Of a DNA stretch of 64,000 nucleotides, positions 3,157 through 47,425 are shown in pieces. Position 1 is the stretch's first letter. Each line of letters begins with the position of its first letter. The stretch lies in assembly GCA_032622095.1 (NCBI GenBank), contig CP136064.1:189149794-189213793 (forward strand), in the 5' to 3' direction. The notes beneath the pieces were generated by a model. The model had not been told where the DNA came from. It worked only from the letters and a program-made list of their open reading frames with translations, and did not search any database. Source of the DNA: Siphonodentalium dalli (lineage: Eukaryota; Mollusca; Scaphopoda; Gadilida; Siphonodentaliidae). The position numbers and the translations under genes were made by a program.

Positions 3157-3341
3157 ACCCCGGTGTACTTGCTGTTCGACCGCGGTGTACTTGCCGTTCG
3201 GCCGCGGTGTACTTGCCGTTCGGCCGCGGTGTACTTGCCGTTCGGCCGCGGTGCTCAGCCGCGGTTCCACAAAGTGACACCGCGGGCCGAACGGCAAGTA
3301 CACCGCGGTGGCATTGGACACTTGTTTTGTCCAGCGGGGTA
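3157..3341 (-). mobile_element. Minisatellite-cored element, copy 2 (inverted)
   Basis: Same 22-bp units, with CCGCGG at about 3180, 3202, 3224 and 3246, then a partly inverted unit and the complement of the copy-1 end (TTGTTTTGTCCAGCGGGGTA, ending at 3341). Copy 1 and copy 2 are therefore oppositely oriented, about 2.6 kb end to end. GAGACTT occurs beside both outer ends but not at the same distance, so I do not claim a target duplication. Confidence 0.7.
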
Positions 3342-3639: not shown

Positions 3640-3780
3640 GGGTCCGACTAGTAGTCGATTACCTCTGGCGACTAGTCGATTCCTTAAAATCGCTAATCGT
3701 TTCAACACTAGTTGGCATCCGTCATATGTCCATGGTCAATATCCTTTAGCACACCCTATAGGCCACATGATGGAGGTGTC
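3640..3780 (-). repeat. Chimeric repeat related to 95-200 and to the 20-kb element
   Basis: Read in reverse it contains GCCAACTAGTGTTGAAACG, closely matching 103-124. In the forward direction 3715-3755 (CATCCGTCAT, CCTTTAGCAC) matches the head of the tandem-repeat element at 19970-20030. Noncoding. Confidence 0.5.
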
Positions 3781-7904: not shown

Positions 7905-9570
7905 TTTATCGTAGATTATTTTTGTTCCAATTGTGTGTTTTCGTATTCAGAATTTTACATCCACGTAATCTATGTTCTATTGTATGTTTTGATGTCTCAA
8001 TTGATTGTCCCAAGGTGTTAACTGTTCCCGATTTTGGTTTTAGATTCTTTATATACCTAGTTATTTCATCATAGGATAATTCTTGATGTGAAATATATTT
8101 GTATATATCATAATTCAAATGCTATAATAAGTGAAGCAAAGATCTTTAACTAATGAGTATGGTTCCATTGACTGAACAGTTCAGAAGCAATTGTCGGATA
8201 CATAAATGACAAATAAAATTGGTTCTTTTGGTCACTGTCACCATGAAACTGTACACATAATTTCTCGCCATAATATTTTTAGTTTAACATGACTGTCAAA
8301 ATTAAGGTGTCATAAAGTTTGATTTTCCCATAGGTTCATTTGTGTTTTGTGCAATTCATAACATTATTTGTGTAGAGGCTCTGAACAGATTGTAATCTTG
8401 ATTGAAGCATAACCATTTGTACTGTACATCTTGGACTCAATTGTTTGACTCAATATGGTTGTAACTAATTGTTATTGCCCTCATTGTGATATATAAATAT
8501 GGATATACATAACATTTATGGATGTCTACTTGTAAATTTTGTTTAAACTTTCTTTTCATATAGACAGCTTGCATGTCAACATTTTGAGACTAAATAAACA
8601 GATTACAGTCAATGTTTGTTTACTTCTACCCCATCAGCATTACCAATATATCCCTGACAAAACAGCTGGATAAATGTGAAATTCATGCAGAAACAATTTC
8701 TTAAACTGTAATGCACCCTAGCTTAGGTGCAATAATTTAAAACTTAAGTAAAAAATAAACCAATGCAAAACTCCCCCCCCCCCCCCATTTACTGTCAAAA
8801 TAATAAGATGTGTGCAGTATCTATCAAAAGTAATGGGTTGACATTGTTTCGGTTTATGTGGGGAATCATGCACAGGCATCAAAGGAAATTTGTGATTGTA
8901 TTTTGAGGCAAGAAAAATGTGAATATTTGATCTTCTGAAGCCTGCTTGATCATCAGACACAAGCGAAAATAAGTTGGCATAAATAGTATACCCTAGCTAT
9001 GGAAATGCTGGTTAAACTGTCAGGACTGAAATGATGACATACCGTTCTCTCCAAATCCCCAACTCTTTAGTCAATTTGTGAATGCTAAGAAGCCTGAGAT
9101 ATTCATCAAATTCCCTCTTAAGATCTGCAGAGGCAGTCACTTTGACACAATTTCAGCATTCCATGACTAATTTGTGCAGCATTTAGGGAGAGGTGGTCAA
9201 TGGGGGCCAAAATATTTTTATGCATCAGCTTTCATCATTTTCAGAATATATAGTCTACAACAGAAGGTGGTTACACATTTGCAAAAATATTCTGGATTCA
9301 TATCTCTATTTCAGTATTTAGGTATTGTTGATTATGTTTAGAAAAAGTTAAGGTATTCTAGCATCATGGCACTAAAGATGGATGCATATGCATTTATATT
9401 TATGTAGAAATAGATTTTTGGTCGCCAGGCGCCAGGACATAACTTACTGACTTTTGTTTCATGCCCATAGAGTAAATCCCTCTTGGTGAAAAAGAAGATA
9501 AAACTAAATCTATGAGACTCCAGCAAGACCACAACTCCTTAAGGAATCCATGTGTATCATCCAGTTCCAC
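7905..9570. other. No gene recognised
   Basis: Gene-free as far as can be seen. Contains a 14-bp C tract at 8773-8786. Confidence 0.5.
8773..8786. repeat. Poly(C) tract, 14 bp
   Basis: An uninterrupted run of 14 C in otherwise AT-rich DNA. Confidence 0.85.
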
Positions 9571-19900: not shown

Positions 19901-22900
19901 TGTTATACCAGAGTTATGGCCCTTTTTAGCTCAACTTTACTTTGGAAAGTTTGAGCTATTGCCATGGCTTGGTATCCGTCGTCTGTGTGCGTGTATGCGT
20001 GTGTGATTCGTCAACAATTTCCTTTAGCACGGGCTACAGTTCGTACCTTTGGTCCGATTATTATGAAATTTGTCATGGATGTTGACATTGACATGTAGAT
20101 GGGAACGAGTCATTTTGGGGTCATTCGGAAAAAAAACATGGCCGCCATCGGCCATCTTTGATTTCAAATTTCAATCCATTAGCACGGGCTACAGGCCGTA
20201 CTGTTCGTCTTATTGTCATGAAATTTGTCATGGATGTTAATATTGACATGTAGATGGGAACGAGTAATTTTGGGGTCATTCGGCCAAAAAACATGGCCGC
20301 CGGCAGCCATCTTAGATTTTACTCTTTGCATGACTAAATCCTTTGACACGGGCTACAGGTCGTACCTTTGGTCGGATCATCATAAAATTAGTCATGGATG
20401 TTAACAATGACATGTAGATGGGAACGAGTAATTTTGGGGTCAATCGGCCAAAAAACATGGCCGCCAGCAGCCATCTTTGATTTTACTCTTTGTATGACTA
20501 AATCCTTTAGCACGGGCTACAGGTCCTACTTTTAGTCTGATCATCATAAAATTTGTCAAGAATGTTATAATGAAATGTAGATGGGAACGACTAATTTTGG
20601 GGTCATTTGGCCAAAAAACATGGTCGCCAGCAGCCATCTTGGATTTTACTCTTTGTATGACTAAATTCTTTAGCATGGGCTACATGTCTTACCTTTAGTC
20701 TGATCATCATAAAATTTGTCATGAATGTTAATAATGACATGTAGATGGGAACGAGTCATTTTTTGGGTCATTCGGCTAAAAAACATGGCCGCCAGCAGCC
20801 ATCTTGGATTTTACTCTTTGTATGACTAAATTCTTTAGCATGGGCTACAGGGCGTACCTTTAGTCTGATTGTCATAAAATTTGTCATGGATGTTAACAAT
20901 GACATGTAGATGGGAACGACTCATTTTGGGGTCATTCGGCGGAAAATATGGCCGCCAGCAGCCATCTTGGATTTTACTTTTCTCTTCATGTCTATAAACT
21001 AGTATTAGACATTCAACTTTCCACATTCCTAATCGCTCCATTGACTGTAATACATTAAATTATTCCCTTTACAAGTTGAGCTACAGTGTCATTGACACTT
21101 TCATTCAACTAAGAATTGAACAGATTTGAGTTTTTGATAACCCAGGTAGATTACAATTAACTACCAGTAATGCAAGCTTAACTGCATAGATAGTGTTCTG
21201 AGAGACTGCAGAACTGATGTCTTATTGAAATATTAGTTATTTTTAGCCACTGTATATAGGACATAGCTCTATGATAGTGGTGAAGCTGTACCCATTCATG
21301 ATTCAATGGACTGTCCCATTCAGTTCTAAAGTTTTAATTGGAATACTCTATTATTCATTTGTAGGGATGTTCTCATTTTAAATTTCAATTAATCATTCTT
21401 CTGTTATCTCCAGGTTTCTTCTCATTCACTTGCATGGATTTCTGTAGATTAACACATCTCAACATTCCTGATACTTTCATCTGATACCATGTCTCATTTT
21501 ATATTGGTTTATTTTGACACACTCTTTGCCGCTATTGATTGACTAATTTATTTTGATTTTTATGTGTACCTATACCATATTGTGATGTCCGGATTGACCA
21601 CTTGTTTTCATTTAGATATTGATGATTATGATACAAGTTGATTAAAAAGGTTCCAAATGTGTCCCTTTTTTAAAATAATTAAAAATAATTATTTTTTTTA
21701 ATTTGAAAAACTAACACCATTATAACTCTGCCAATGGGTACCCCGAATCACCACACCAAATTTGTTTAAATCGGTCCAAAATCTTGTGTTATGTACTGGT
21801 AAATCTGTTTGGAGCAACATTAAATCCAATTCACCATAGTATGGTACACATATTGTGATGTCCGGATAAAAACTAACACCATTATAACTCTGCAAAGGGT
21901 ACCCCGAATCACCACACCAAATTTGTTTAAATCGGTCCAAAATCTTGTTATGTACCTGTAAATCTGTTTGGAGCAACATTAAATCCTATTCACCAATTTT
22001 ATGCCATGCCTTTGGACTACTTAGCTATTGATAAGGCTATATCATTTTCTGATGTCTCTTATGCCAATGTGCAAATAATCTGATAAAGAAGGCTATGGTA
22101 TCTAATTTAAAATAAAGATTCAACAATAAACATCACATGATATTAGCAGTAGACTTGGACTCTCTTAACCCAAGTATTCCATGTTCAGGTCACACCTTTC
22201 ACATTTAACCCAAGGCTGTGGTGGTTTAGCATTACATATCTTGTACCAGTGCATTCTCTTATATAAATGCCGGTGACCCATACATTCCAATATTTGTGTT
22301 ATATACATTTGTTTATAATAGTACATACAGTATACTCATATAATTCAACACCAAAACTCTCATTTATGATCCCGATCATAGTAAATTTTTATCGCCAAGG
22401 GATGGGTTAACATCTGCCGATCGTGATCGGCCTCTCGTTAATTTATTCATGTGATAATAATATTGTTCAATAGCGCATAGCATTTTCAAAATATTTTCAT
22501 ATACATATAAACATACATTAAGTGTCATTTGTATATATAACAGAACAGTGTATACAGCAAGTAATTTTGAGATAATTAGTGTATTTGAGAAGCGGAAATA
22601 TTTATAATCATAATGACTTATTTCTGAACTGCCGTGGGAAAGTCATTAAGTTCATATAATGAGCATGTATGAGTAATAGGTTTACTCAAAAGTAAATGTT
22701 GCCTCGTTTTCATTTTCTGAGAATTGCTTCAAGGACCTTCCATCCTTCCTTATATTTTTTACTTCTATTGCAAGGAATATGTGTTTAGAAATTCAAATTT
22801 GATTATAATATTAAAAAAATTCAATAGGTCCATTTACAGTTTGGTTAGTAGCAGACATGTTAAGTTTTGAAAATAGCAATCCGGGAGATTTTGCGGGAGG

Positions 22901-33899: not shown

Positions 33900-35279
33900 G
33901 GGCACATGTGATGAGTTCATAAATATAGGCACCTGTGTAATTGCGCTACATCTGGTGTCCACATGGGTCCATGGCGTATGCGTGGCTGTGATTATAACCT
34001 AGTCATGTAACATGTACATCCATGGGATGGGTTCATGTCTTACATATAAATGATGCCTGGTAATAAGGTCATAACTGTTGGACAAGGTCATAATTAAATC
34101 AGCCTGGATACATGGGCTGTCCATAGTGGCCGTCTCAATTTCCTACTTGTATGAGCCTGGGTCCATAGCCATAGTGGTGCACACTGCCAATCTATAGGGA
34201 CCTCCATCCTATAGGGCATTGCATGGCATGCATATAGAGACGTTGGATCCATGCACATGCATTTTGGTCCATGACTTACCCGTAGGGCCTGGAGTCCATA
34301 TGTCTCCTATATATGTGGATCAGTCCATTGCCTACCAGCAATGGTCCAGCATATATGTGAAGCTATGAACTGACTAATAACGTCGGTTCCGTAGCTTATA
34401 TTTAGGGACCTGTATCCAATGCATACATAATTATAGTCACCTTGGTATTAGCACTACTTAAAGGTGCCTGGGTCTTTGGTGTAGATATATCACGTATAAG
34501 GGGTGGGTCCATATCCTACATATAGGCATCTGCTTATGCCTGGGTACAATGCTATATGGCATACATATATCGGCCTTGGTCCATGGTCTACATGTATGGG
34601 CATGTGTCCATGGCCAACCTACAGTGCCATGTGTGTGGGCTATTTATAGGCGCCTCCACCCTTAACCTTCATATATGTGGCATCGGTCCAATATCTATGT
34701 ATAGGTTAATCTGTCACAAAACTGTCCCATATGTTCATACCATATATATGGTCATGAATCCATGGTGTACTAATGCATTGTGCATCAGACTTGGTCTATG
34801 GTACCCGAGTACATGGGCACTTGAACCATGCAACCGTGTCATGGTCCTTGAAAATGCAGCTTCGGTATCATACATGTATAATGGGCTTGGTCCATCACCA
34901 TAGAGTATACTATTGTATTTCTATAACACGGCATCACTCCATTGCGGCCTTGGTGACCAGGTATAACCCATCTAACATCGTGGTTAAATGGTGTATGCCG
35001 AGTCTGTAGATGCCTGGATCCAAGGCCAATATATAAGGGCTTATATGAAGCGGTCTGGTTCATGGACTATACATATCCTAGTCTATATGTTAGGCCATGG
35101 GTCCTATGACCATGTATATGTGCCTGGGTCCTAACCCAACTATTGTAGGGTAGGTCCATGGCTAACATATTGGTGGCTGGCCCTATGTTCTTCATATATA
35201 GTAGAGTGGGTCCGTGACTTACATTATACATCTAGCTGTGTTGGCCTATGGCTTATATAACTATTATGGTCATGCCTCA
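33900..35279. repeat. Degenerate GTCCATGG satellite, right block
   Basis: Dozens of words like GGGTCCATGGC, CCTACATATAT and TATAGGGGCCTGG follow each other, at roughly 28-bp spacing in the clearer parts (34286-34350, 34570-34640) and wider elsewhere. Frames across it are chance. Confidence 0.5.
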
Positions 35280-35283
35280 TCTA

Positions 35284-36379
35284 TCTATACTATATATTTT
35301 GAGACTTCGTATATATGTGTGTACTTCATAGAATCCAAAACGCGTGTAAAGATTGAGCTCAAACTTCCTATGTAAGTGTCAAATCCCACCGACACGACCG
35401 TGGTCGCGGTTTAGAGAAGCTCAGAGCACCCGTTCTCCAATCTCAAATCACCGCAAAGGCACGGCGTGGGTTAATCAAGTGATTATTTAATGAGCGTTTG
35501 TTTTTGACGCATCTCTATAAAGAGTGTCTGTTTGCCATTCAACGTTATTTGCATCTGCAGAGAGATATACGGAACATACATTAAATTTAAAAAACATTTG
35601 TTTCTGACCAACCCTGCGAGCACGGATGGCGCGCTTTGTTTTTACAGTATATAATTATATACCGAAATCATCCCAGATATTCACGAATATAGCATCAGAT
35701 TTCTCCCCAGATATACCGTTATAAAGCTACTGGAATCTGCCAATCTACGGGAAATTCCAGGGAATGCCGATTGAGCTCAAACTTGCTACCCATGGGAAGT
35801 GTCATATATATGAGTGTGTCCTTTATAGACTCGAACCGATTGAGCTCAAACTTGCTAAATAAGAAAATAGCCCCCAAGCCGTAAATATCAACAACAACGA
35901 TATTACTAAATACACGTTTTCGGCAATGTGAGAGTTTTCGGGGAGCCGTGATGCCAACAACAATGACCCGAAGCCCTGAATGCCAACAACAGATTCAATG
36001 CAATGTTATCTATTATGCAGAGAAATTTCACGACATTACGACAGGTACGGCAGACTCAAAATATTATGCAGACAGATTTCCCGACGGGAAGCGTTTGTTT
36101 TAAATTCAATGCAATGTTATCGTAGAGAGATTTCACGAAACAAAGAATGCGTTGTCTGTCGTTCCTAGGAAGGGGGGATTTCTACAGGTAAATTTTTCCG
36201 CCAGAAACAATTTACAATTTAATTAAAACAATTTAAAATTAAAAAAAATTAACAATAAAAAAACAATTCAGAAACAAAATATATTAAATTTAAAAAACAT
36301 TAAATTCATATTCAAAAATGTCATGTTTCTGAAACAAAGCCATGGGACGAATGCCGCCAGTGGCGGGCTAACCTGCTAG
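35284..36379 (+). mobile_element. Helitron A, nonautonomous, 1096 bp
   Basis: 5' end TCTATACTATATATTTTGAG after A at 35283; 3' end GCCAGTGGCGGGCTAACCTG then CTAG at 36376-36379. The first ~190 bp (CATAGAATCCAAAACGCG, GAGCTCAAACTTCC) are shared with B and C. The interior has no coding sequence and ends in an A-rich stretch. Confidence 0.85.
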
Positions 36380-37531
36380 TCTATACTATATATTTTGAGA
36401 CTTCGTATATATGTGTGTGTGTGTGTGTGTGTGTACTTCATAGAATCCAAAACGCGTGTACAGATTGAGATCAAATTTCGTATGTAAGTGTAAAATCCCA
36501 CCGACACGACCGTGGTCGCAGTTTAGAAAAGCTCAGAGCACCCGTTCTCCACTCCCATTCATCAAAATCAGCTCAAACGGCACGGCCGGGGTTAATAACG
36601 TCATTATATATATATATGAAGTCAGAGTCTCCAGAGTTATACCGGAACAAACACGTGTTTACGTCGTCTTGGGGGTCCACGATGGGAGTCTGACTTCAAT
36701 GCAATGTTATCGCTCGAAACACGTGTTTACTTCGTGTTGAGGTTCACGATGGGAGTCTGACAATTGTTATCGCTCGAAATAGTACAACGGCTGGACAGAT
36801 TGAGCTCAAACTTCCCATCTAGAGGTAAAATCCTGCGTACGATGTCGTCCACGCGTTTTCCAGAAGCTCCGAGCACCCGTACTCCACTCCCAGTCATTAA
36901 AATCAGCTCAAACGGCACGGCCGGGGTTAATAACGTCATTATATATATATATGAAGTCAGAGTCTCCAGAGTTATACGGGAACAAACACGTGTTTACGTC
37001 GTCTTGGGGGTCCACGATGGGAGTCTGACTTCGATGCAATGTTATCGCTCGAAACACGTGTTTACTTCGTGTTGAGGTTCACGATGGGAGTCTGACAATT
37101 GTTATCGCTCGAAATAGTACATTAGGACGGGTACGAAATGCATTTATCTCGATTAAAAAGGCAGATCTCGGAAACGGGTGGAGCTATCGACTTGAAAATT
37201 GCAATGTGAATGTATCTTGCGCCGCGTACAAATGTTATCGGGTCGCCGAGCCCATGCGACGCCCGTGCAGCGCATGCGCAGACGAGATATCGGAAACGGG
37301 TGGAGCTATCGACTTGAAATTTGCTATGTGAATGTATCTTGGGCCGGGTACAAATTTGATCGGGTCGCCGAGCCCGTGCGAAGCCAGCTTCGCGCATGCG
37401 CAGACCAGATCTCGGAAACGGGTGGAGCTACCGGGTACAATTTTTTCTTATTGAAACGCGTGGAGCTAAAAATTAAAAAAAAATATAAACAATGTTTCGG
37501 ACAAGCCGCCGGTGGCGGGCTACCCTGCTAG
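36380..37531 (+). mobile_element. Helitron B, nonautonomous, 1152 bp
   Basis: Starts immediately after the CTAG of A and ends GGTGGCGGGCTACCCTG plus CTAG at 37528-37531. The interior contains a ~205-bp segment present twice, 334 bp apart (36580 and 36914; CATTATATATATATATGAAG, CAAACACGTGTTTACGTCGT), and 2.3 units of a ~130-bp repeat (37150-37430; CGGAAACGGGTGGAGCTATC, GATCGGGTCGCCGAGCCC). Matching open frames in the two copies are repeat artefacts. Confidence 0.85.
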
Positions 37532-37679
37532 TACTATATATTTTGAGAACTCCGTATATGTGTGTGTGTGTGTGTGTGTGGGTACTTCATAGAATCCAAA
37601 ACGCGTGTAAAGATTGAGCTCAAACTTCCTATGTAAGTGTCAAATCCCACCGACACGACCGTGGTCGCGTTTTAGAGAA

Positions 37680-38700
37680 GCCCAGAGCACCCGTTCTTCA
37701 ATCTCAAATCACCGCAAAGGCACGGCATGGGTTAAGGCATCAACGCTCTTTATATATAGCATATACGGAGTTGTTAACGACGAACGCTCTTTATTGCAAT
37801 CGGCAGTTTGTTTACCGAGCACCGACGGTCATGCATTAGTTCAGTGCGTTTGTCGCATTCATTCGATAGCAGACCATTAATTCGATCAGTGCTTTACTGT
37901 CATTCATCTTATCAGACGGCATTGTTATCATTCATTCGATAGCATTGCATTCATCTGACCATTGTTAGCAGACTGCATTGTTATCAGTTTGCTTGGTTTT
38001 GTTTGCCGACGCTCCTCGATAGCATTCTTTTCCTACGGCCAGGTTTTGTTTACCGAGCGCCGTTGCATTGCATTCTGACCATACGAATCAGACTGCCTAC
38101 ATTTTTTTGGCATTCTGACCATACAAATCAGACTGCCTACATTATTGTGCATTTCTTGCTTTGTGTATTGTGAAAACAGACTGCCAAAATAATTATATTG
38201 TATTTTTGTTATCAGACTGCAAACATTATTCTGCATTCATAATACTTTGAATCATTTTGTATTGTGACACTCCCAAATCACTGCAAAGGCACTTCGGGGG
38301 TTAAGGCATCAACGCTCTTTATCTATACCATATACGGAGTTGTTAACGACAAACGCTCTATATTTCAATCGGCAGTTTGTTTACCGAGCACCGACGGTCA
38401 TGCATTAGTTCAGTGCGTTTGTCGCATTCATTCGATAGTAGACCATTAATTCGATCAGTGCTTTACTGTCATTCATCTTATCAGACGGCATTGTTATCAT
38501 TCAACGAGCGCCGTTGCATTGCATTCTGACCATACAAAAATCAGACTGCCTACATTATTGTGCATTTCTTGCTTTGTGTATTGTGAAAACAGACTGCCAA
38601 AATAATTATATTGTATTTTTGCATTCTGACCATTGTTATCAGACATTTCCTCAACATTCATCCAGTTTGTGTCATTTTATGGCTTGAATAAGGTCATTTT
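37680..38700 (+). repeat. Duplicated leader segment of Helitron C
   Basis: 37728-37930 and 38290-38490 are near-identical (GGTTAAGGCATCAACGCTCT, CAATCGGCAGTTTGTTTACC, TTCGATCAGTGCTTTACTGT). Further short repeats of GACTGCCTACATTATTGTGC type continue to about 39200. Each copy carries one paired AACGCTCTTTAT module (37745-37797 and 38309-38361), with the 12-mers 41 bp apart. The segment lies upstream of the Rep start codon, so it may be the element's promoter. Confidence 0.7.
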
Positions 38701-39229
38701 CGGCTTTTTTCGCTGCCAAAATGGCAAAATGTATTAATCAGAAGCATATCTTCCCCTGTTCGGGTGTGAATTGCTGGTCGCCCCTGACGAGATTGGTCAC
38801 CCCTGACGAGATTCCACCATGAGAGAATCGAAACTTCACTTTAAATGCCCATCATTGTAAGTGATGTCGGGCAATGTACCACGCAAATTTATCTTCATAA
38901 ATTTTCGATCTTTTCAGAAGTTGTTAGTATTATCTCGGTTCCCTCGAAGTTCATATAATTTGAACGGCCCTTCTGAGGGCCACTATTAGCGCAAGGGACT
39001 CGATAATTCTGCATTCTGACACTGCAAACATGATTGTGCATTCATAATACTTTCAATCATTTTGTATTGTGACCAATACGAATCAGACTGCCTACATTAT
39101 TGAAAGTCAGACTGCCTTCGATCATTATTCATTCTTGCTTTGTGTATTGTGAAAACAGACTGCCAAATTAATTATATTGTATTTTCTGCATTCTGATCAG
39201 ACTGCCATTGTTGAGTCCTGCATTTTGGC

Positions 39230-41317
39230 ATGCCGCCCAAGAAGAGACCAATCATTGGCCGGACAAGTTCAGGTGCCAAACGTAAGAAAATAGAAAAGGC
39301 TACTGAAACTGGACAGCAGCGTGAACAACGCCTATCAGATAAACGGGAGACGGCTGTTCAGGCTCGAGAAGTGGAAACTGAGCAGCAGTGTGAACAGCGC
39401 CTATTAGATAAACGGGAGAGGGCTGTTCAGGCTCGAGAAGTGGAAACTGGACAGCAACGTGAACAGCGCCTATCAGATAAACGGGAGACGGCTGTTCAGG
39501 CTCGAGAAGTGGAAACTGAGCAGCAGCGTGAACAGCGCCTATTAGATAAACGGGAGAGGGCTGTTCAGGCTCGAGAAGTGGAAACTGGACAGCAGCGTGA
39601 ACAGCGCCTATTAGATAAACGCGAGACGGCTGTTCAGGCTCGAGAAGAGGAAACTGGGCAGCAGCGTGAACAGCGCCTATTAGATCTCAGGGAGAGGGCT
39701 GTTCAGGCTCGAGAAGTGGAAACTGGGCAGCAGCGTGAACAACGCCTATTAGATCTCCGGGAGAGGGCTGTTCATGCTCGAGCCGTTGAAACCGATGAGC
39801 AGCGGCATCATGAGGCTGATCGTCGCCGGCGACATGCACATGCGATCAGGGAGTGGCAAAACTCCGCTTTCGTTTATGACCCTCACATCGACTACAAGTC
39901 GCACAGAATTTTGCAGATTGCCCGAATGACCGAATTGTGTCAACATTGTCGCGCTTTTAAATGGCAAGGTGAACCACCAGGGATGTGCTGCTTGAATGCC
40001 AAAGTTATGCTTCAACATGCTGACCCACCTGAACCTCTTCAAGACCTGCTTCGTGGTTCAACCCCAGAATCTAAACATTTTCTCAAGAACATCCAGAAAT
40101 ATAATGCCGCATTCCAAATGACATCTTTTGGGGCAAATATCATAACTGAAGGTGTGTATATGCCAACGTTCAAAGTTCAAGTTTACCATCGCAATGGCCC
40201 TCTACAACCCAATGATGATGCACAACCTCAATACATGCAGATATACTTTGTTGGTGATTTTAATAGAGAGGTAGAACTCCGTTCCGCTTTGTCTGATGGC
40301 ACCAGACCTGAAGTTATTTACACTCTCCAGCAAATGATCCATCAACACAACTCTTATGTGTCCAGTTTTAAATATGCTCTAGAAACCCACAACACACCAA
40401 ATTTGCAGGTGGTCATAGACGCGGACAGAAGACCACTCAATCAACACAGTGGTCGATTTAATGAACCTGCGTGCAATGAGATAGCGGTCGTTTTAGCAGG
40501 CGCAGAACATGGAAAGCGTGATATTGTTTTAAAGCGTCGTGACGACACTATACTTCGCATTTGCGAGACACATAGATCATACGACCCTCTCCAGTATCCC
40601 CTCCTCTGTGTCTTCGGTGAAGACGGATATAAGTTCGGTATACCACACTCAATCGGCAACAAAAATGTGTCATGTAAGGACTTTTATTCGTATCATTTCA
40701 TGGTTCGTGATGGGTCCTTCAACCACTTGCACCGAAGCCGGAACCTGTTCAGTCAGATTGCCGTAGATGTGTACGCCAAAGTGGAGGGTGAACGACTCCT
40801 CTATATTCGGAACAACCAGAATAAACTCCGTGCAGATTCATATATACACCTCTGTGATAGCATCAATAATGATCAGGAAAGAGCCGGAGTCGGCCAACTG
40901 GTAATCCTCCCGTCGACATTCACAGGTAGCCCGCGATATATGCAGAAGACGCAGGATGCTATGACATTTGTCAGGCACTTCGGTCGTCCGGACCTGTTCA
41001 TAACATTCACGTGCAACCCTGCATGGCAGGAATTGAAGGTTGAATTGTTCGAGGGCCAGGTTTCTAAAGACAGGCATGACTTGACAGCTAGAGTGTTCCG
41101 TCTGAAACTGACGAAGCTCATGAACCTTTTGAAGAAATCGCACATTTTGGGCCAACCTGTGTGCGATATGTATACGGTTGAATGGCAAAAGAGGGGATTA
41201 CCACATGCGCACATTTTAACTTGGCTTAAAAACAAAATACACCCCGAACAGATCGACAGCTTCATTTCTGCCGAATTTCCTGATCCTGATAGGATCCAGA
41301 ATTGTTCGAGACTGTGA
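39230..41317 (+). CDS. Helitron Rep, N-terminal part (frameshifted at its end)
   Basis: 695 codons. A basic start (MPPKKRP) is followed by seven 23-residue repeats (residues about 26-187; [20 protein letters not shown] and variants) encoded by 69-bp units, predicted to form a long charged coiled coil. From about residue 205 it follows the Helitron-like N-terminal/Rep family: [19 protein letters not shown] near 584-602 and [13 protein letters not shown] with the HUH histidines at 659 and 661. By family knowledge Rep nicks and joins single-stranded DNA in rolling-circle transposition. A frameshift near 41290 gives a false stop; the family sequence continues in another frame ([20 protein letters not shown]). 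Confidence 0.85.
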
Positions 41318-41646
41318 AGGCTCAGATGATACACGGTCCATGTGGTCCATTCAATTTCAATTCGCCCTGCATGGAAAATGTACGAAGCGGTACCCTCGGC
41401 CGTTCATCTTAGAAACGCAAACTGGCCATGATGGCTATCCACTTTACAGGAGGAGATCACCAGATGATGGTGGAAATGTCGCCAGTATAAAACTTAAAAA
41501 TGGACAGGATTTTGTTGCAGACAATAGGTGGGTTGTTCCATATTGTCCCATGTTATCAAAAATCTTCAACGCACACATAAACGTGCAACTCTGTAAAAGC
41601 TATAAAGTATGTATGCAAATACATCAATAAGGGATCAGATGCGGCG
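41293..41646 (+). pseudogene. Helitron Rep, middle part, three frames
   Basis: The expected Rep sequence continues from 41293 in one frame to about 41373 ([10 protein letters not shown]). It then moves to a second frame ([42 protein letters not shown]) up to about 41600, and to a third (IKYVCKYINKGSDAAMF). The last stretch holds the two Rep tyrosines (KYVCKY). The residues survive but are separated from the HUH part by three small indels, so no single protein can join them. Confidence 0.75.
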
Positions 41647-42792
41647 ATGTTCGCCCTACGCGACATGAGAACAAAGGACGAGTTGAGCCAATTCCAAATG
41701 GGTAGGTACATCAGTACCAATGAAGCGTTTTGGCGCATTTTTGACTTCCCCATCCACGATAGACACCCAGCCGTTTTTCGACTTGCTGTGCATTTAGAAA
41801 ATGGACAGAGAGTGTACTTCACCGAACAAACAGCGGCACAAGTTGTATCGGCTCCAAAAGAGACGACACTCACTGCCTTTTTCAAACTTTGCCAAGATGA
41901 TGATTTTGCCAAGACAATTTTGTACTGTGACCTCCCATCTTATTTCACCTTTGTCAATAATCGATGGGTCCGCCGCAAGCGTGGTGAACCCGTCGAAGGA
42001 GGCATGGGCGTGTTCAAAGACTATGCTCTCGGTAGGGTCTACACTGTTCATCCCACACAACAGGAATGTTTTTTCTTGAGAATGCTGCTGCATGAAGTGG
42101 AAGGTCCAACATCTTTTAACTCCTTGCGAACTGTCGACGGCCAATTATGCATTAGCTACAGAGAAGCGTGCTTCAAAAGGGGACTATTGGAAGACGACCA
42201 CCAATGGGAGGCAACGATGACAGAGGCAGCCATGTCAAAGTCACCTAGGAGTTTGCGTAGTTTGTTTGTGACTCTCTTGCACATATGTGGTATTGCTAAT
42301 CCTCTTGAATTGTGGCTCCAATTCAGAGAAAACCTCTCGGAGGATCTTAAATACAGGTTGCAGGTTGCAAATCCTGGCATTGACGTTTCATTCAACGATG
42401 ATATTTTCAATGCTTCTCTCGTCGAGATCGAAAACAAAATCCTGGCTCTTGGGGGACCAGAGCTCCACACTTTCGGTCTCCCTCGCACTCAACATTCTCG
42501 CCCGTCTGCACTGCCCCGAGAGGTGCTGCGTGAACTGTCATACGATTTAGATACTATCGAGCAAACACTTTCATCGGGCGAACCAAATCTTCTCCCAGAG
42601 CAGCGACACTGTTATGTCACCATACTGCAGAGTGTTGCCAATCACCTTGGTGGCATTTATTTTCTCGACACTCCCGGGGGCACTGGGAAAACATTTGTGA
42701 CAAACCTTATTTTGGCGAGTCAGGGAAGAAAGGAAAATCGCTGTTGCAGTTGCATCCTCTGGCACAGCTGCAACACTTCTTCCTGGAGGTAG
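41647..42792 (+). CDS. Helitron Rep-helicase linker and helicase Walker A part
   Basis: 381 codons shown from the first ATG; the frame is open from about 41602 with the Rep tyrosines. The first ~300 residues match the linker between Rep and helicase (WRIFDFPIHDRHPAVFRLAV, VEGPTSFNSLRTVDG). The helicase then begins with IYFLDTPGGTGKTFVTNLIL; Walker A GGTGKT is at residues 344-349. A one-base-type frameshift near 42715 makes the final ~25 residues false. The other frame restores the family sequence (IAVAVASSGTAATLLPGG) leading into the next segment. Confidence 0.8.
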   Translation: MFALRDMRTKDELSQFQMGRYISTNEAFWRIFDFPIHDRHPAVFRLAVHLENGQRVYFTEQTAAQVVSAPKETTLTAFFKLCQDDDFAKTILYCDLPSYFTFVNNRWVRRKRGEPVEGGMGVFKDYALGRVYTVHPTQQECFFLRMLLHEVEGPTSFNSLRTVDGQLCISYREACFKRGLLEDDHQWEATMTEAAMSKSPRSLRSLFVTLLHICGIANPLELWLQFRENLSEDLKYRLQVANPGIDVSFNDDIFNASLVEIENKILALGGPELHTFGLPRTQHSRPSALPREVLRELSYDLDTIEQTLSSGEPNLLPEQRHCYVTILQSVANHLGGIYFLDTPGGTGKTFVTNLILASQGRKENRCCSCILWHSCNTSSWR

Positions 42793-42826
42793 AACTGCAC
42801 ATTCAACATTCAAACTGCCACTCAAT

Positions 42827-43948
42827 TTGAATGCGAGCGATACTCCGACATGTAATATAAGCAAGGGTACTGGTCTTGCTCACCTGTTGAGAGAGGCTGT
42901 GTTGATTGTCTGGGATGAGTGTACTATGTCACATAAGAGAGCATTCGAGGCACTGGATCGAACACTGCAAGATCTAAGGGGCTGTAACAATATCATGGGT
43001 GGTATAACCTTACTATTGTCTGGAGACTTCCGACAAACTCTGCCTATTGTACCAAAAGGCACAAAGGCTGATGAATTAAAAGCTTGCATCAAATCATCTT
43101 ACCTTTGGAAGAGTGTTCGAATGCTCGAGCTGACAATTAACATGAGGGCGCATCTGTTCGGTAATGACGTGGCTGCACATTTTTTCGACCAGTTACCCAG
43201 AATTGGCGATGGCAAGTGCAATGCTGATGCCGAGGGACGAATAGATCTACGTGCTTTGAGCTCGATTGTTTCCTCTCTTGATGAGCTCATTGTGAATGTT
43301 TTCAGAGATCTTCCTCGCAAGCTCTCGAATCACACATGGCTCTGTGAGAGAGCCATTCTAGCTCCTACAAATGATATTGTTGACGAGGTGAACTTGAAGT
43401 TGTTGGAACAAGTCCCTGGACAGCTTCATTCTATGCACTCCATTGATACCATTCCAGACCAATCAGAAATTGTCAATTACCCGACCGAGTTCCTCAATTC
43501 ACTGAAACCCCCAGGCATGCCACCTCATCAGTTGCAATTGAAGGTAGGTGCACCAATCATGTTGCTCCGAAATCTTGAACCACCTAAGTTGTGTAATGGT
43601 ACACGACTTTCTATCAAGAAAATATCACCTCATATCATTGAGGCAACTATTCTCACGGGATGTGCGAAAGGGGAGCATGTTTTTCTCCCTAGGATTCCAT
43701 TGATTCCAACTGAGTCGCCAATACAGTTCCGCCGGCTTCAGTTCCCAGTTCGATTGAGCTTTGCAATGTCAATCAACAAATCACAAGGACAGACACTTAA
43801 AGTTGTTGGCCTCCAACTTCAGAGTCCCTGTTTCTCACATGGACAGCTATACGTTGCATGCTCACGGGTCGGCTCCCCCTCCAGTCTGTTCGTTTATGCA
43901 CCAGAAGGGAAAACTAGGAACGTTGTCTACCCAGAAGCATTGAGGTAA
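42827..43948 (+). CDS. Helitron Pif1-like helicase, C-terminal part
   Basis: 373 codons. Superfamily 1 Pif1-type motifs occur in order: Walker B VWDECTM (D30, E31), GDFRQTLPIVP (from residue 66), LTINMR (about 102-107), GAPIMLLRNL, NGTRL, the RLSFAMSINKSQGQTL box (about 308-323) and YVACSRVGS. The end, NVVYPEALR plus stop, is the normal Helitron helicase C-terminus. No OTU, RPA or endonuclease domain follows. The helicase unwinds DNA during rolling-circle transposition in the family. The segment is intact apart from being out of frame with its N-terminal half. Confidence 0.85.
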   Translation: MNASDTPTCNISKGTGLAHLLREAVLIVWDECTMSHKRAFEALDRTLQDLRGCNNIMGGITLLLSGDFRQTLPIVPKGTKADELKACIKSSYLWKSVRMLELTINMRAHLFGNDVAAHFFDQLPRIGDGKCNADAEGRIDLRALSSIVSSLDELIVNVFRDLPRKLSNHTWLCERAILAPTNDIVDEVNLKLLEQVPGQLHSMHSIDTIPDQSEIVNYPTEFLNSLKPPGMPPHQLQLKVGAPIMLLRNLEPPKLCNGTRLSIKKISPHIIEATILTGCAKGEHVFLPRIPLIPTESPIQFRRLQFPVRLSFAMSINKSQGQTLKVVGLQLQSPCFSHGQLYVACSRVGSPSSLFVYAPEGKTRNVVYPEALR

Positions 43949-43969
43949 ATTTTCAAAAGCAGAATGGTG

Positions 43970-44135
43970 AACCCGTCGAAGGAGTAATGGGCGTGTTCAA
44001 AGACTATGCTCTCGGTATGGTCTACACTGTTCATCCTACACAACAGCAATGTTTGTTTTTCTTGAGAATGCTGCTGCATGAAGTGGAAGGTCCAACATCG
44101 TTTAACTCCTTACGAACCGTCGATGGCCAATTTCT
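43970..44135 (+). repeat. Second copy of a Rep-helicase linker fragment
   Basis: Repeats 41984-42148 with about a dozen differences (GGTGAACCCGTCGAAGGAG, GTGTTCAAAGACTATGCTCT, CTGCATGAAGTGGAAGGTCC). It begins 22 bp after the helicase stop codon and runs directly into the 260-bp array. Confidence 0.8.
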
Positions 44136-44139
44136 CTTG

Positions 44140-46010
44140 ATTAAAAAGGAAGAATTAACTCATTGAAAAACCAAAACATTGTCTTCGATTTTTGAGACCT
44201 CCCCTTTCATTCGATGTGGGTGCGCTTAATGGTTATATTGATATCTCTTCCAACATTTTCATTCGTTGTACATTCCCCATTATCGCTCTGCACACAGTCT
44301 GGTTCATTCACTTGATTATTTAACTCATGTGTCTCCTCACGTTTTCAGTTCTGTATTCTGACCACTCAGTTTAATTAACGAATCAATGAACAACGATAAT
44401 TATTGGATTAAGACACTCTTAGATGAATGAATGTATAGACAGAAAAATACAAATCCAGTTACTCAGGAAATTGAATTGGTGAGAACATTATCTCTCTTGA
44501 TTTAAAAGGCATAATTAACTCATTGATTATCTCATGTGTGTCCTCACTTTTTCAGTTCTGTATTCTGACCACTCAGTTCAATTAACGAATTAATGTATTA
44601 AGAAACTCTTAGATGAGTGAATGTATAGACAGAAAAATACAAATCCAGTTACTCAGGAAGGTGTGGGGAAAAATTCCCGAATGTTGTACTTGAATTGTTA
44701 TTGGTCCATGGTGAGACCACAATTTCTCTTGATTTAAAAGAAGGCAGAATTAACTCATTGATTATCTCATGTGTCTCCTCACTTTTTCAGTTCTGTATTC
44801 TGACCACTCAGTTCAATTAACGAATTAATCAACAACGACAATTAATGTATAAAGACTCTCTTAGATGAGTGAACGTATAGACAGAAAAATACAAATCCAG
44901 TTACTCAGGAAATTGAATTGGTGTGGGGAAAAATTCCCGAATGTTGTACTTGAATTGTTATTGGTCCATGGTGAGACCACAATTTCTCTTGATTTAAAAG
45001 AAGGCATAATTAACTCATTGATTATCTCATGTGTCTCCTCACGTTTTCAGTTCTGTATTCTGACCACTCAGTTCAATTAACGAATCAATGAACAATGATA
45101 ATTATTGGATTAAAAAACTCTTAGATGAATGAATGTATAGACAGAAAAATACAAATCCAGTTACTCAGGAAATTGAATTGGTGTGGGGAAACATTCCCGA
45201 ATGTTGTACTTGATTTGTTATTGGTCCATGGTGAGACCACAATTTCTATTGATTTAAAAGAAGGCAGAATTAACTCATTGATTATCTCATGTGTGTCCTC
45301 ACTTTTTCAGTTCTGTATTCTGACCACTCAGTTTAATTAAAGAATCAATGAACAATGATAATTATTGGATTAAAAAACTCTTAGATGAATGAATGTATAG
45401 ACAGAAAAATACAAATCCAGTTACTCAGGAAATTGAATTGGTGTGGGGAAAAATTCCCGAATGTTGTACTTGAATTGTTATTGGTCCATGGTGAGACCAC
45501 AATTTCTCTTGATTTAAAAGAAGGCAGAATTAACTCATTGATTATCTCATGTGTCTCCTCACTTTTTCAGTTCTGTATTCTGACCACTCAGTTCAATTAA
45601 CGAATTAATCAACAACGACAATTAATGTATAAAGACTCTCTTAGATGAGTGAACGTATAGACAGAAAAATACAAATCCAGTTACTCAGGAAATTGAATTG
45701 GTGTGGGGAAAAATTCCCGAATGTTGTACTTGAATTGTTATTGGTCCATGGTGAGACCACAATTTCTCTTGATTTAAAAGAAGGCATAATTAACTCATTG
45801 ATTATCTCATGTGTCTCCTCACGTTTTCAGTTCTGTATTCTGACCATTCAGTTCAATTAACGAATCAATCAACAATGATAATTATTGGATTAAAAAACTC
45901 TTAGATGAATGAATGTATAGACAGAAAAATACAAATCCAGTTACTCAGGAAATTGAATTGTGTGGGGAAAAATTCCCGAATGTTGTACTTGAATTAACCA
46001 TTCAGTTCAA
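44140..46010 (+). repeat. 260-bp tandem array, about seven units, in Helitron C
   Basis: The full units have an exact 260-bp period. Each contains GAATGTATAGACAGAAAAAT, AGTTACTCAGGAAATTGAAT, TGTGGGGAAAAATTCCCGAA, TCCATGGTGAGACCACAATT and TTCAGTTCTGTATTCTGACC. The first two units have deletions and the last is cut short. Each full unit holds the same 71-codon frame, but 260 is not a multiple of 3 and the frame has no known motif, so coding is unlikely. Confidence 0.9.
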
Positions 46011-46186
46011 TTAACGAATCAATCATTAACAAATTAAAATAAAAATTTATTTTAAAAATGTCATGTTTCTGACCAACCACGCCAGTGGCGGGCTAACCAG
46101 CTCACAAGTGTCTCGGAACCTGTTGCAATTGCTTTTTTGAACAAAGCCATGGGACGAATGCTGCCAGTGGCGGGCTAACCTGCTAG

Positions 46187-46875
46187 TCTATTATATATTT
46201 TGGAAGATCTGTGTGTTTGTGTGTGTGTTCGCGATGGACTCGAACACGGCTGGACCGATTTCGACCAAACTTGGTACGGACACGTAATTCGACCCGGGAA
46301 CGAACATGGGCCCGTCCATTTGTCCGTGCGGCATGACCTTCAAACCGGTGACCTTCAACCTGTATCTCGGCTCCTGCTGGGCCGATTTGGACCAAATTTG
46401 GTATGTGGGGGCAGTGTGAGGCACCGAGCCATTTCGTCGCGTCTGGATGCTCGTGCAGCGTGACCTTGAAACCGTATCTCGGGATCCGCTGGGCCGATTT
46501 CTCCCATTTTTGAGGTGCTGGTGTAGGTTGACCCCAGGAGTAACACGGGCATGTCTGTCTGTCGGTGCGGCGTGACCTCAACCTCCGAATGACCTTGAAC
46601 TTATATCTCGGGATCCGCTGAGCCGAATTTGGTGGAAACGGGTAGTATGAAGCGCTGAGCAATTTCATCACATCCGGATGCCCGTGCGTTGTGACCTTGA
46701 CCTTCACTCTCTAAATCGGGTCAAGCCGGATGGATTTCGACGGGTACTTTTGGACCGGTCAAATCGTGACCCCACCTGACCTTGACCTTCAAAATGGAAA
46801 ATTCAAGGTCAAATCGCGCAATTCGCTGAAAAGCAGAGGGCAAACAGCCCGGACGAAGTCGGGTCCACCTGCTAG
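46187..46875 (+). mobile_element. Helitron D, nonautonomous, 689 bp, a different family
   Basis: Starts TCTATTATATATTTTGGAAG directly behind the CTAG of C and ends GTCGGGTCCACCTG plus CTAG (46872-46875) before T. The stem CCCGGACGAAGTCGGG stands 10 bases from the end. The interior is GC-rich with loosely repeated words (CTCGGGATCCGCTGGGCCGA, GACCTTGA). Long open frames on the reverse strand reflect this composition. Confidence 0.8.
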
Positions 46876-46959
46876 TATAAAATATAACCAACGACTTTTC
46901 AACTCTCACTTTGAATTCCCGATATCTGAACTGGTGGAACATAACGGATAATTGTACCC

Positions 46960-47425
46960 ATATGGAAACTAAATTTGTAGCACATCCTGGTTAGGCTCAC
47001 ATTAACACCATAAAAAACGAGTTTAGTTAAAACTACCATAATATCAGTGCATTTTTGGTATTTCGAGTGTGACCCAGGCAACAGACACCACTCATATAAG
47101 TCAGAATTATATGGTACTGTTTTCAGCCAGCTCAACACTAACAACTATTATTATTGTTTTCGACATAAAAGTGCTATTTGGTGTAGTTTAGTTTGTTAAA
47201 GCAACCATAATATCAGTCATATGTGCATTTTTATATTTTGGGTGTGTCCCTAGCAACTGTCACCACCTGTAAGTCAACAATATGGCAGTTTGTCAGTCAG
47301 GTCAAAACTGATAACAATTTTCTTCACCATAAAAATGCTACACGACGTAATTTAGTTTCTTAGAACTCACATAATATCAGTCATCTGCATTAATTCGATG
47401 CCGGGTAGTTGCCTAGCAACCGTTG
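46960..47425 (-). repeat. ~165-bp tandem repeat with GTTGCTAGG sites, reverse array
   Basis: Reverse complement of the 30985-31580 family: TTAGCAACGGTTGCTAGGCA is shared exactly with 31003-31022. Three units, with the site near 47404, 47255 and 47072, and CATAATATCAGTCAT and CACCATAAAAATGC blocks. Confidence 0.65.

Follow-up and report, generated by a model that had tools for sequence, protein, structure and literature searches.

How a stack of transposons comes to stand end to end is the question raised by a 64-kb stretch of the Siphonodentalium dalli genome (the window, C4:189149794-189213793, from an assembly of 2.23 Gb in 9 contigs). Four Helitrons, A, B, C and D, lie end to end in it, and C is split. 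Such an arrangement could reflect successive landings of elements in one another or the laying down of several joined units at once. With a probability of about 0.82, we conclude that canonical A|T-inserting Helitrons (the bar marks an insertion point or a joint) insert into related Helitrons at the 5' end. The split of C is an instance of a pattern found genome-wide.

A split Helitron in a four-element stack

The joints of the stack can be read to the base. CTAG begins at positions 36376, 37528, 46183 and 46872 of the window, with final bases at 36379, 37531, 46186 and 46875, and the sequences directly following these ends are, in order, TCTATACTATATATTTTG, TACTATATATTTTG, TCTATTATATATTTTG and the host TATAAAATATAACC. 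Positions 35280-35283 read TCTA and are followed from 35284 by A's own TCTATACT. C consists of 35280-35283 together with 37532-46186, interrupted by A and B. On both strands of the window, TATATATTTTG has four matches, exclusively at the four Helitron starts, and CCTGCTAGT has four, exclusively at the four Helitron ends. The tally is balanced, with four elements and four TCTA. The joints are not due to chance, because the assembly contains 2,110 exact CTAG|TACTATATATTTTGAGA joints (CTAG|TACT) and 2,462 exact CTAG|TCTATACTATATATTTTGAGA joints (of the CTAG|TCTATACT type), and the reversed control patterns have 0 matches in these counts. The initial annotation of this DNA had placed the window's four CTAG joints, the stray TCTA and the A and T on either side of the block, and each position is exact to the base. 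The features of the locus are the following.

35130-35279, + strand: left host flank, part of a dispersed repeat, ending in the target A; joined to 46876-47025 it matches uninterrupted copies elsewhere
35280-35283, + strand: TCTA, read as the first four bases of C severed from the rest of C, from its position and the genome-wide pairing of TCTA with CTAG|TACT
35284-36379, + strand: Helitron A, 1,096 bp, non-autonomous, from its ends and related copies
36380-37531, + strand: Helitron B, 1,152 bp, non-autonomous, from its ends; 57% identical to A over aligned columns
37532-46186, + strand: body of Helitron C, 8,655 bp, beginning TACTATATA without its TCTA, with RepHel reading frames, from its ends and domains
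39230-41317, + strand: open reading frame of 695 amino acids, STPR repeats and then a Rep domain, from profile matches
39305-39782, + strand: tandem repeat of 69 bp x 6.9 encoding 23-amino-acid STPR units, from repeat search and profile match
41647-42792, + strand: open reading frame of 381 amino acids, putative beginning of a PIF1 helicase (profile 2-45), with a match slightly below the Pfam cutoff
42827-43948, + strand: open reading frame of 373 amino acids, putative remainder of the PIF1 helicase (profile 81-221) and Pif1_2B, in a frame that differs from that of the preceding one
44588-45995, + strand: tandem array of 260 bp x 5.4 within C, from repeat search
46187-46875, + strand: Helitron D, 689 bp, of another subfamily (TCTATTATATATTTTGG ... 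GTCGGGTCCACCTGCTAG), from its ends
46876-47025, + strand: right host flank, beginning TATAAAATATAA, from joined-flank matches

The empty site offers a direct view of the locus before insertion. A search with the two 150-base flanks joined at A35279|T46876, the empty site proposed by the initial annotation, finds a dispersed host repeat that spans the join (40 scored matches of 522 first-look candidates, the best at 97%). The site is intact in all 20 paralogous copies fetched, which read CCTCA|TATAAAATATAA or a one-base variant, gap-free near the junction. The whole 11.6-kb block is therefore inserted DNA, placed at A|T without target site duplication.

Similarity among the elements is concentrated at their termini. 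The 5' ~190 bp of A are 89% alike to C and its last 54 bp 94%, and the 5' ~243 bp of B are 84% alike to C. D is 80% alike to C over ~50 columns at the 5' end and has 9 bases in common with it at the 3' end. A copy of A with the same ends and host DNA on both sides (L021) is 97% identical. A and B look like non-autonomous partners. Within C, positions 46087-46106 of the window hold a decayed second 3' end (GGCGGGCTAACCAGCTC) ~80 bp ahead of the real CTAG end, which might reflect bypass of an older terminator.

Within the block, D was the first to insert; C then took D's A|TCTATTATATAT site, B entered C after its fourth base, and A arrived either last or together with B. The nested order D, C, B, already put forward from the window alone, is well supported. 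Both ends of the older C are recoverable around A and B, as a self-insertion stack demands, and the same features pair directionally elsewhere in the genome. The near-identical neighbours that would point to a single terminator-bypass event are not found at A|B or C|D, and C and D share only short end stretches. The accompanying claim that A is the newest element and landed alone is not proven, since the joint between A's tail and B's head recurs elsewhere. The alternative entertained in the same annotation, that A and B came as one composite unit (A start to B end) in a single event inside C, is a real contender at somewhat below even odds. It draws on this recurrence, in which 8 of 39 other scored matches span all 401 query bases at 89-92%, and on A's landing point, B's A|TCTATACT, being a poor target. 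Yet both families are abundant, the joint may recur by chance, and the recurrence concerns the joint rather than the outer ends of the pairs, so that it does not decide whether A and B moved jointly.

Split 5' ends and neighbouring copies across the assembly

An element landing at TCTA|TACT would leave an extra TCTA upstream and a bare TACT downstream. Exact 5' starts with at least one TCTA number 4,770 in the assembly, those with at least two 982, and those with at least three 260. Each pattern search lists its first 100 places, all on contig C1 except that for at least three TCTA, and the results on direction, flanks, joint classes and the weight matrix depend on them. For the multi-TCTA starts, 44 of 100 among the matches listed were used (C1 0-130 Mb). 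A CTAG|TACT joint lies within 4 kb only downstream of 19 of them and only upstream of 0, with 7 having joints on both sides and 18 on neither (19 vs 0, p 3.8e-6). Shorter distances give a similar picture, with 19 downstream-only vs 2 upstream-only starts at 2.5 kb and 14 vs 1 at 1.5 kb. The control of 93 single-TCTA joints (of 100 among the matches listed, below 91.8 Mb) gives 24 vs 12 at 4 kb.

The pairing can also be followed from the bare joints backwards. Twelve CTAG|TACT joints without a listed (TCTA)2 upstream were hand-picked, with some arrays passed over, and read by eye, so that the verdicts are a reader's judgement. Nine have an extra TCTA before another subfamily in a contiguous stack (three of these, L057, L058 and L067, depend on altered prefixes), two have none (L059, L063), and L061 is undecided, its stack leaving the fetched piece. 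None of eight host-flanked single-TCTA starts, taken as controls, has a CTAG|TACT joint downstream within 3.5 kb; among them, L068 and L073 have no recognised 3' end and say little, and L074 ends at a TATA-rich, possibly Helitron-like flank. L066 carries three TCTA in front and two bare joints behind, one of these mutated. Summed by eye, TCTA totals per stack are close to one per element, though not exact. In L011, two stacks with different elements and prefix lengths are preceded by one and the same host sequence (at 3697 and 13115 of the reversed joined piece), which suggests a duplicated site.

Stacking is common in this genome. The 3' end GGCGGGCTAACCTGCTAG occurs at 9,352 places in the assembly. 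Among 100 matches listed, it is followed by TC, which we read as a Helitron start, in 49, by the bare inner start in 23 (19 exact TACTATATATTTTGAGA, 1 variant thereof and 3 TATTATATATTTTGAGA), by Helitron-like sequence in 6 and by host DNA in 22; the pattern excludes G at its last (seventeenth) base, and some host flanks are therefore missed. Apparently solo insertions with host DNA on both sides exist as well (e.g. L021, L071, L072 and L075). At G000:C1:49027605-49045213, joint spacings repeat near 1,301 and 1,118 bases in a higher-order, satellite-like Helitron repeat.

The two kinds of joints differ in how alike their neighbours are, as judged from alignments of elements of 900-1,400 bp, a range that leaves C|D and others outside. 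Neighbours joined at the inner site, four bases into the resident element (+4), resemble each other no more than members of different arrays do (16 pairs, median 0.77, p 0.24). At TC ends, 18 pairs have a median of 0.989 (p 1e-6 vs different arrays, 5e-4 without L014). Identity is at least 94.5% in 14 of these 18 pairs, and in 6 it lies above 0.991, the 99th percentile for different-array pairs; the pairs below this percentile could be two members of one subfamily. The neighbours in L001 are 100% identical and of equal length, and A|B, at 57% identity, is the exception among the TC-end joints. The near-identity of TC-end neighbours therefore indicates that self-insertion is probably supplemented by tandem copying, whether through multimeric insertion or through unequal exchange, and both successive landing and tandem copying seem to happen in the genome.

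This likeness is what one would expect if the stacks were multimers, made when a circular intermediate is copied by rolling circle or the 3' terminator is bypassed, so that several CTAG|TC-joined units are deposited at once. Arrays in bat and silkworm have been read as terminator bypass (PMC4067079). Part of the likeness may, however, mean no more than a shared subfamily, and copying of this kind has no way to CTAG|TACT joints with the missing TCTA on their far side. Neither can it join unlike elements such as A|B or C|D, nor does it agree with +4 neighbours as unlike as elements of different arrays. On the neighbour identities, a purely concatemeric origin is rejected for the +4 class and kept for many TC-end joints; as an account of the stacks in general it is a tentative one, well short of even odds.

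Target sites and a possible route to stacks

Insertions of elements into the 5' ends of their relatives raise the question of what draws them there, and host insertions provide the reference. In 76 distinct host flanks (100 matches listed, with 13 duplicates and 11 Helitron-like flanks dropped), the most frequent bases downstream of the joint are T, A and T, followed by a TATATAA-like stretch; the flank search patterns bar C at the second, third and last bases, and some host flanks are therefore lost. TATAWA occurs within positions 2-12 in 54 of the 76, vs a mean of 3.2 and a maximum of 11 in shuffled flanks (2,000 rounds, single-base), and its first occurrence is at offset 3 in 25 flanks and at offset 5 in 12. 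A weight matrix over positions 3-11, with the first three positions omitted, distinguishes host insertions from A|T sites of the window with an area under the curve (AUC) of 0.92 in leave-one-out. On 54 flanks of another subfamily, hand-selected with (AT)n runs, repeats and Helitron-like rows left out, the AUC is 0.94.

Scored in the same way, the elements' own 5' ends rank high. Of the 217 A|T sites in A, the +4 site TCTA|TACTATATAT scores best, and it ranks within the top 0.07% of 11,376 host A|T sites. For D-like, TCTACT and TCTCAT starts, the TC end falls within the top 0.2-1%, and the A-type TC end, A|TCTATACT, is ordinary, with 26% of host A|T sites scoring as high. The motif fits the landing of C at D's TC end and that of B four bases into C; the landing of A before B is unexpected. 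The initial annotation had taken A|TC starts as repeated landing sites in general. This view suits D-like, TCTACT and TCTCAT starts, and it was dropped for A-type copies on their ordinary weight-matrix score, the inner TCTA|TACTATATAT being preferred in these.

A preference for AT-rich, TATA-like sequence, with the own 5' end as just one such site and no added self-attraction, would be one explanation. The motif is strong, the own site is near the top, and AT-rich sequence, above all on the 3' flank, is favoured by Helraiser as well (PMC4778049). However, about 6,900 own sites face about 340,000 genomic A|T sites that are equal or better, numbers extrapolated from one window, and the motif then predicts self-insertion in at most ~2% of cases, or 0.14% by weights. 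Against this range of roughly 0.1-2% stand 23 inner and 22 host joints among the 100 3' ends listed, a gap that is wide though rough, as duplicated stacks inflate the observed share and some host flanks are missed by the search pattern. Motif strength alone seems not enough for the observed self-insertion, and we consider this explanation unlikely.

Microsatellite slipping of TCTA at the 5' end, with TACT starts as deletions and no nested insertion, is very improbable and is set aside because bare TACT starts without CTAG are rare among the matches listed and on the expected side: (TCTA)n up to n=5 does occur and prefixes do differ among copies, but the extra TCTA and the bare TACT stand in a preferred order along the strand, and of 57 starts not classed as CTAG-joined (by a loose rule, and from a pattern that bars G at the first base and so drops most CTAG-joined starts) 46 have an A followed by a TC prefix; among the other 11, changes in the TC prefix or in the CTAG joint prevail, and one shows no trace of TC.

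Insertion into the 5' ends of relatives can be broken down as follows. Host targets often start with T, with a TATAWA-like stretch 3-5 bases on, and the element's own 5' end presents such a site in TCTA|TACTATATAT. An insertion at this inner site separates TCTA, which stays to the left, from the rest of the resident element, which follows at a CTAG|TACT joint to the right; C is an example. TC-end joints are found as well, many of them between near-identical elements and others between unlike ones (A|B, C|D). Each landing would spoil the old site (A|T becoming G|T) and the newcomer would supply a fresh one, so that stacks would grow on their 5' side. Because motif strength seems insufficient for the amount of self-insertion, we hypothesize, as the simplest reading, that RepHel protein may be held at resident 5' ends, the normal start of transposition, with incoming strands being joined there. 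Copies might thus pile up in readable stacks because the first bases of the element look like one of its best landing sites.

Several observations weigh against this reading. Among the multi-TCTA starts, 18 of 44 are without an exact CTAG|TACT joint within 4 kb, 2 of the 12 bare joints have no extra TCTA upstream, and the single-TCTA control likewise leans downstream. L003, L005 and the middle stack of L011 have a TCTA surplus of at least one, and L009, which holds a duplicated two-element block, is one TCTA short. In L014 (G000:C5:157110300-157120000), 7 of the 8 starts seen carry (TCTA)2 or (TCTA)3, and the lengthened prefix appears to have been copied along with the element. The uneven sums and the L014 prefixes therefore indicate that prefixes can be inherited or duplicated. 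Six of the 16 +4 pairs are at least 98% alike, so the +4 class also includes duplicates. On the side of the target, 17 of the 76 host flanks are without TATAWA in 20 bases, and the A-type TC end scores poorly, though its joint, CTAG|TCTATACT, outnumbers CTAG|TACT. The tethering step has only the crude estimate of the shortfall behind it.

The protein that would carry out these steps is predicted in C. Its Rep domain matches Helitron_like_N (PF14214, E 3.3e-53), and ~7 STPR (score and three amino) repeats of 23 amino acids (PF21107, E 1.9e-9) stand N-terminal of it. A PIF1 helicase is indicated by matches to PF05970 (E 1.5e-36), in pieces over two open reading frames in different frames. TC at the 5' end and CTAG at the 3' end are present in A, B and D, and in C at 35280 and 46183, respectively. 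A 3' hairpin is predicted in each of A-D, whose terminal 45 bases give folding energies of -11.8 to -18.6 kcal/mol, computed with RNA parameters and no shuffle control. These features support the window elements as canonical Helitrons of one superfamily, with Rep and PIF1 predicted in C in split reading frames. The Helentron / Helitron2 class, which is marked by a preference for TT targets and by asymmetric terminal inverted repeats, was rejected on the A|T target and the CTAG end of the elements.

ATNTWTNTA, an AT-rich motif, is bound by the STPR protein FMBP-1 of the silkworm (PMC4821344), and by analogy the STPR repeats of the Helitron protein may bear on targeting. A more far-reaching and rather speculative idea, to which we give a low chance, is that of a self-homing transposon. 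RepHel, via its ~7 N-terminal STPR repeats, would recognise the TATATA-like stretch in host DNA as well as the one in its own 5' end; every copy would be a preferred landing pad, used once and passed to the newcomer, and the 5' prefix would record the order of landing. The literature search found no paper combining Helitrons with 'score and three amino'.

Four of six other open reading frames of at least 120 amino acids were scanned and have no Pfam match at E 0.01, the remaining two lying antisense within C and D. A tRNA search with bacterial settings found none. Further tandem repeats occur at 20020-20978, 785-924 and 3161-3253 of the window, with ~164-bp units and, at two places, 22-bp units of similar sequence.

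Comparison with known Helitron systems

Stacked and self-inserted Helitrons have been published before. For the four-base bookkeeping and the self-target motif, the literature search found no precedent, neither a split-end tally nor a description of a 5' end as an element's own preferred target, which is weak evidence of novelty, as subscription papers lay mostly outside its scope and papers were covered in part. The four-base split end separates successive landings from one multimeric event joint by joint, at thousands of joints in one genome. An own start among the best targets would be a simple route for a transposon to concentrate itself in stacks, and stacks may be raw material for composite elements and satellite-like arrays.

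Tandem Helitron arrays have been described in Myotis and Bombyx, and unlike Helitrons stand adjacent in bat and maize (PMC4067079); in the accessible part of the silkworm paper PMC3789558, the word 'tandem' is absent. The Myotis and Bombyx arrays were explained by termination bypass (PMC4067079), whereas the split ends described here show insertion for the +4 class. Similarly to the elements of this genome, maize Helitrons prefer to land near or inside relatives, with multiple termini as a result (PMC3288121; PMC12477314, citing Yang and Bennetzen 2009); unlike here, a base-level landing site is not given in the accessible portions of these papers.

FoHeli of Fusarium and the Metarhizium triple copy resemble our case in their insertion beside or in a relative's 5' end, in composites with several 5' termini and in the same two rival readings (PMC5148889). 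For the Metarhizium triple copy, the choice between self-insertion and rolling-circle copying was left open in that paper. In contrast to the present elements, FoHeli and the Metarhizium copy have non-canonical termini and target, and the cases are few (PMC5148889).

The closest match in termini and target is the Helraiser/Helibat type of canonical Helitrons, which shares with the elements described here the TC start, the CTAG end, the A|T target without duplication, the Rep-PIF1 protein and a preference for AT-rich DNA that is greatest on the 3' flank (PMC4778049). Unlike in that type, the preference here is for a positioned TATAWA, the 5' end itself is a top target, and most 3' ends among the matches listed precede another Helitron.

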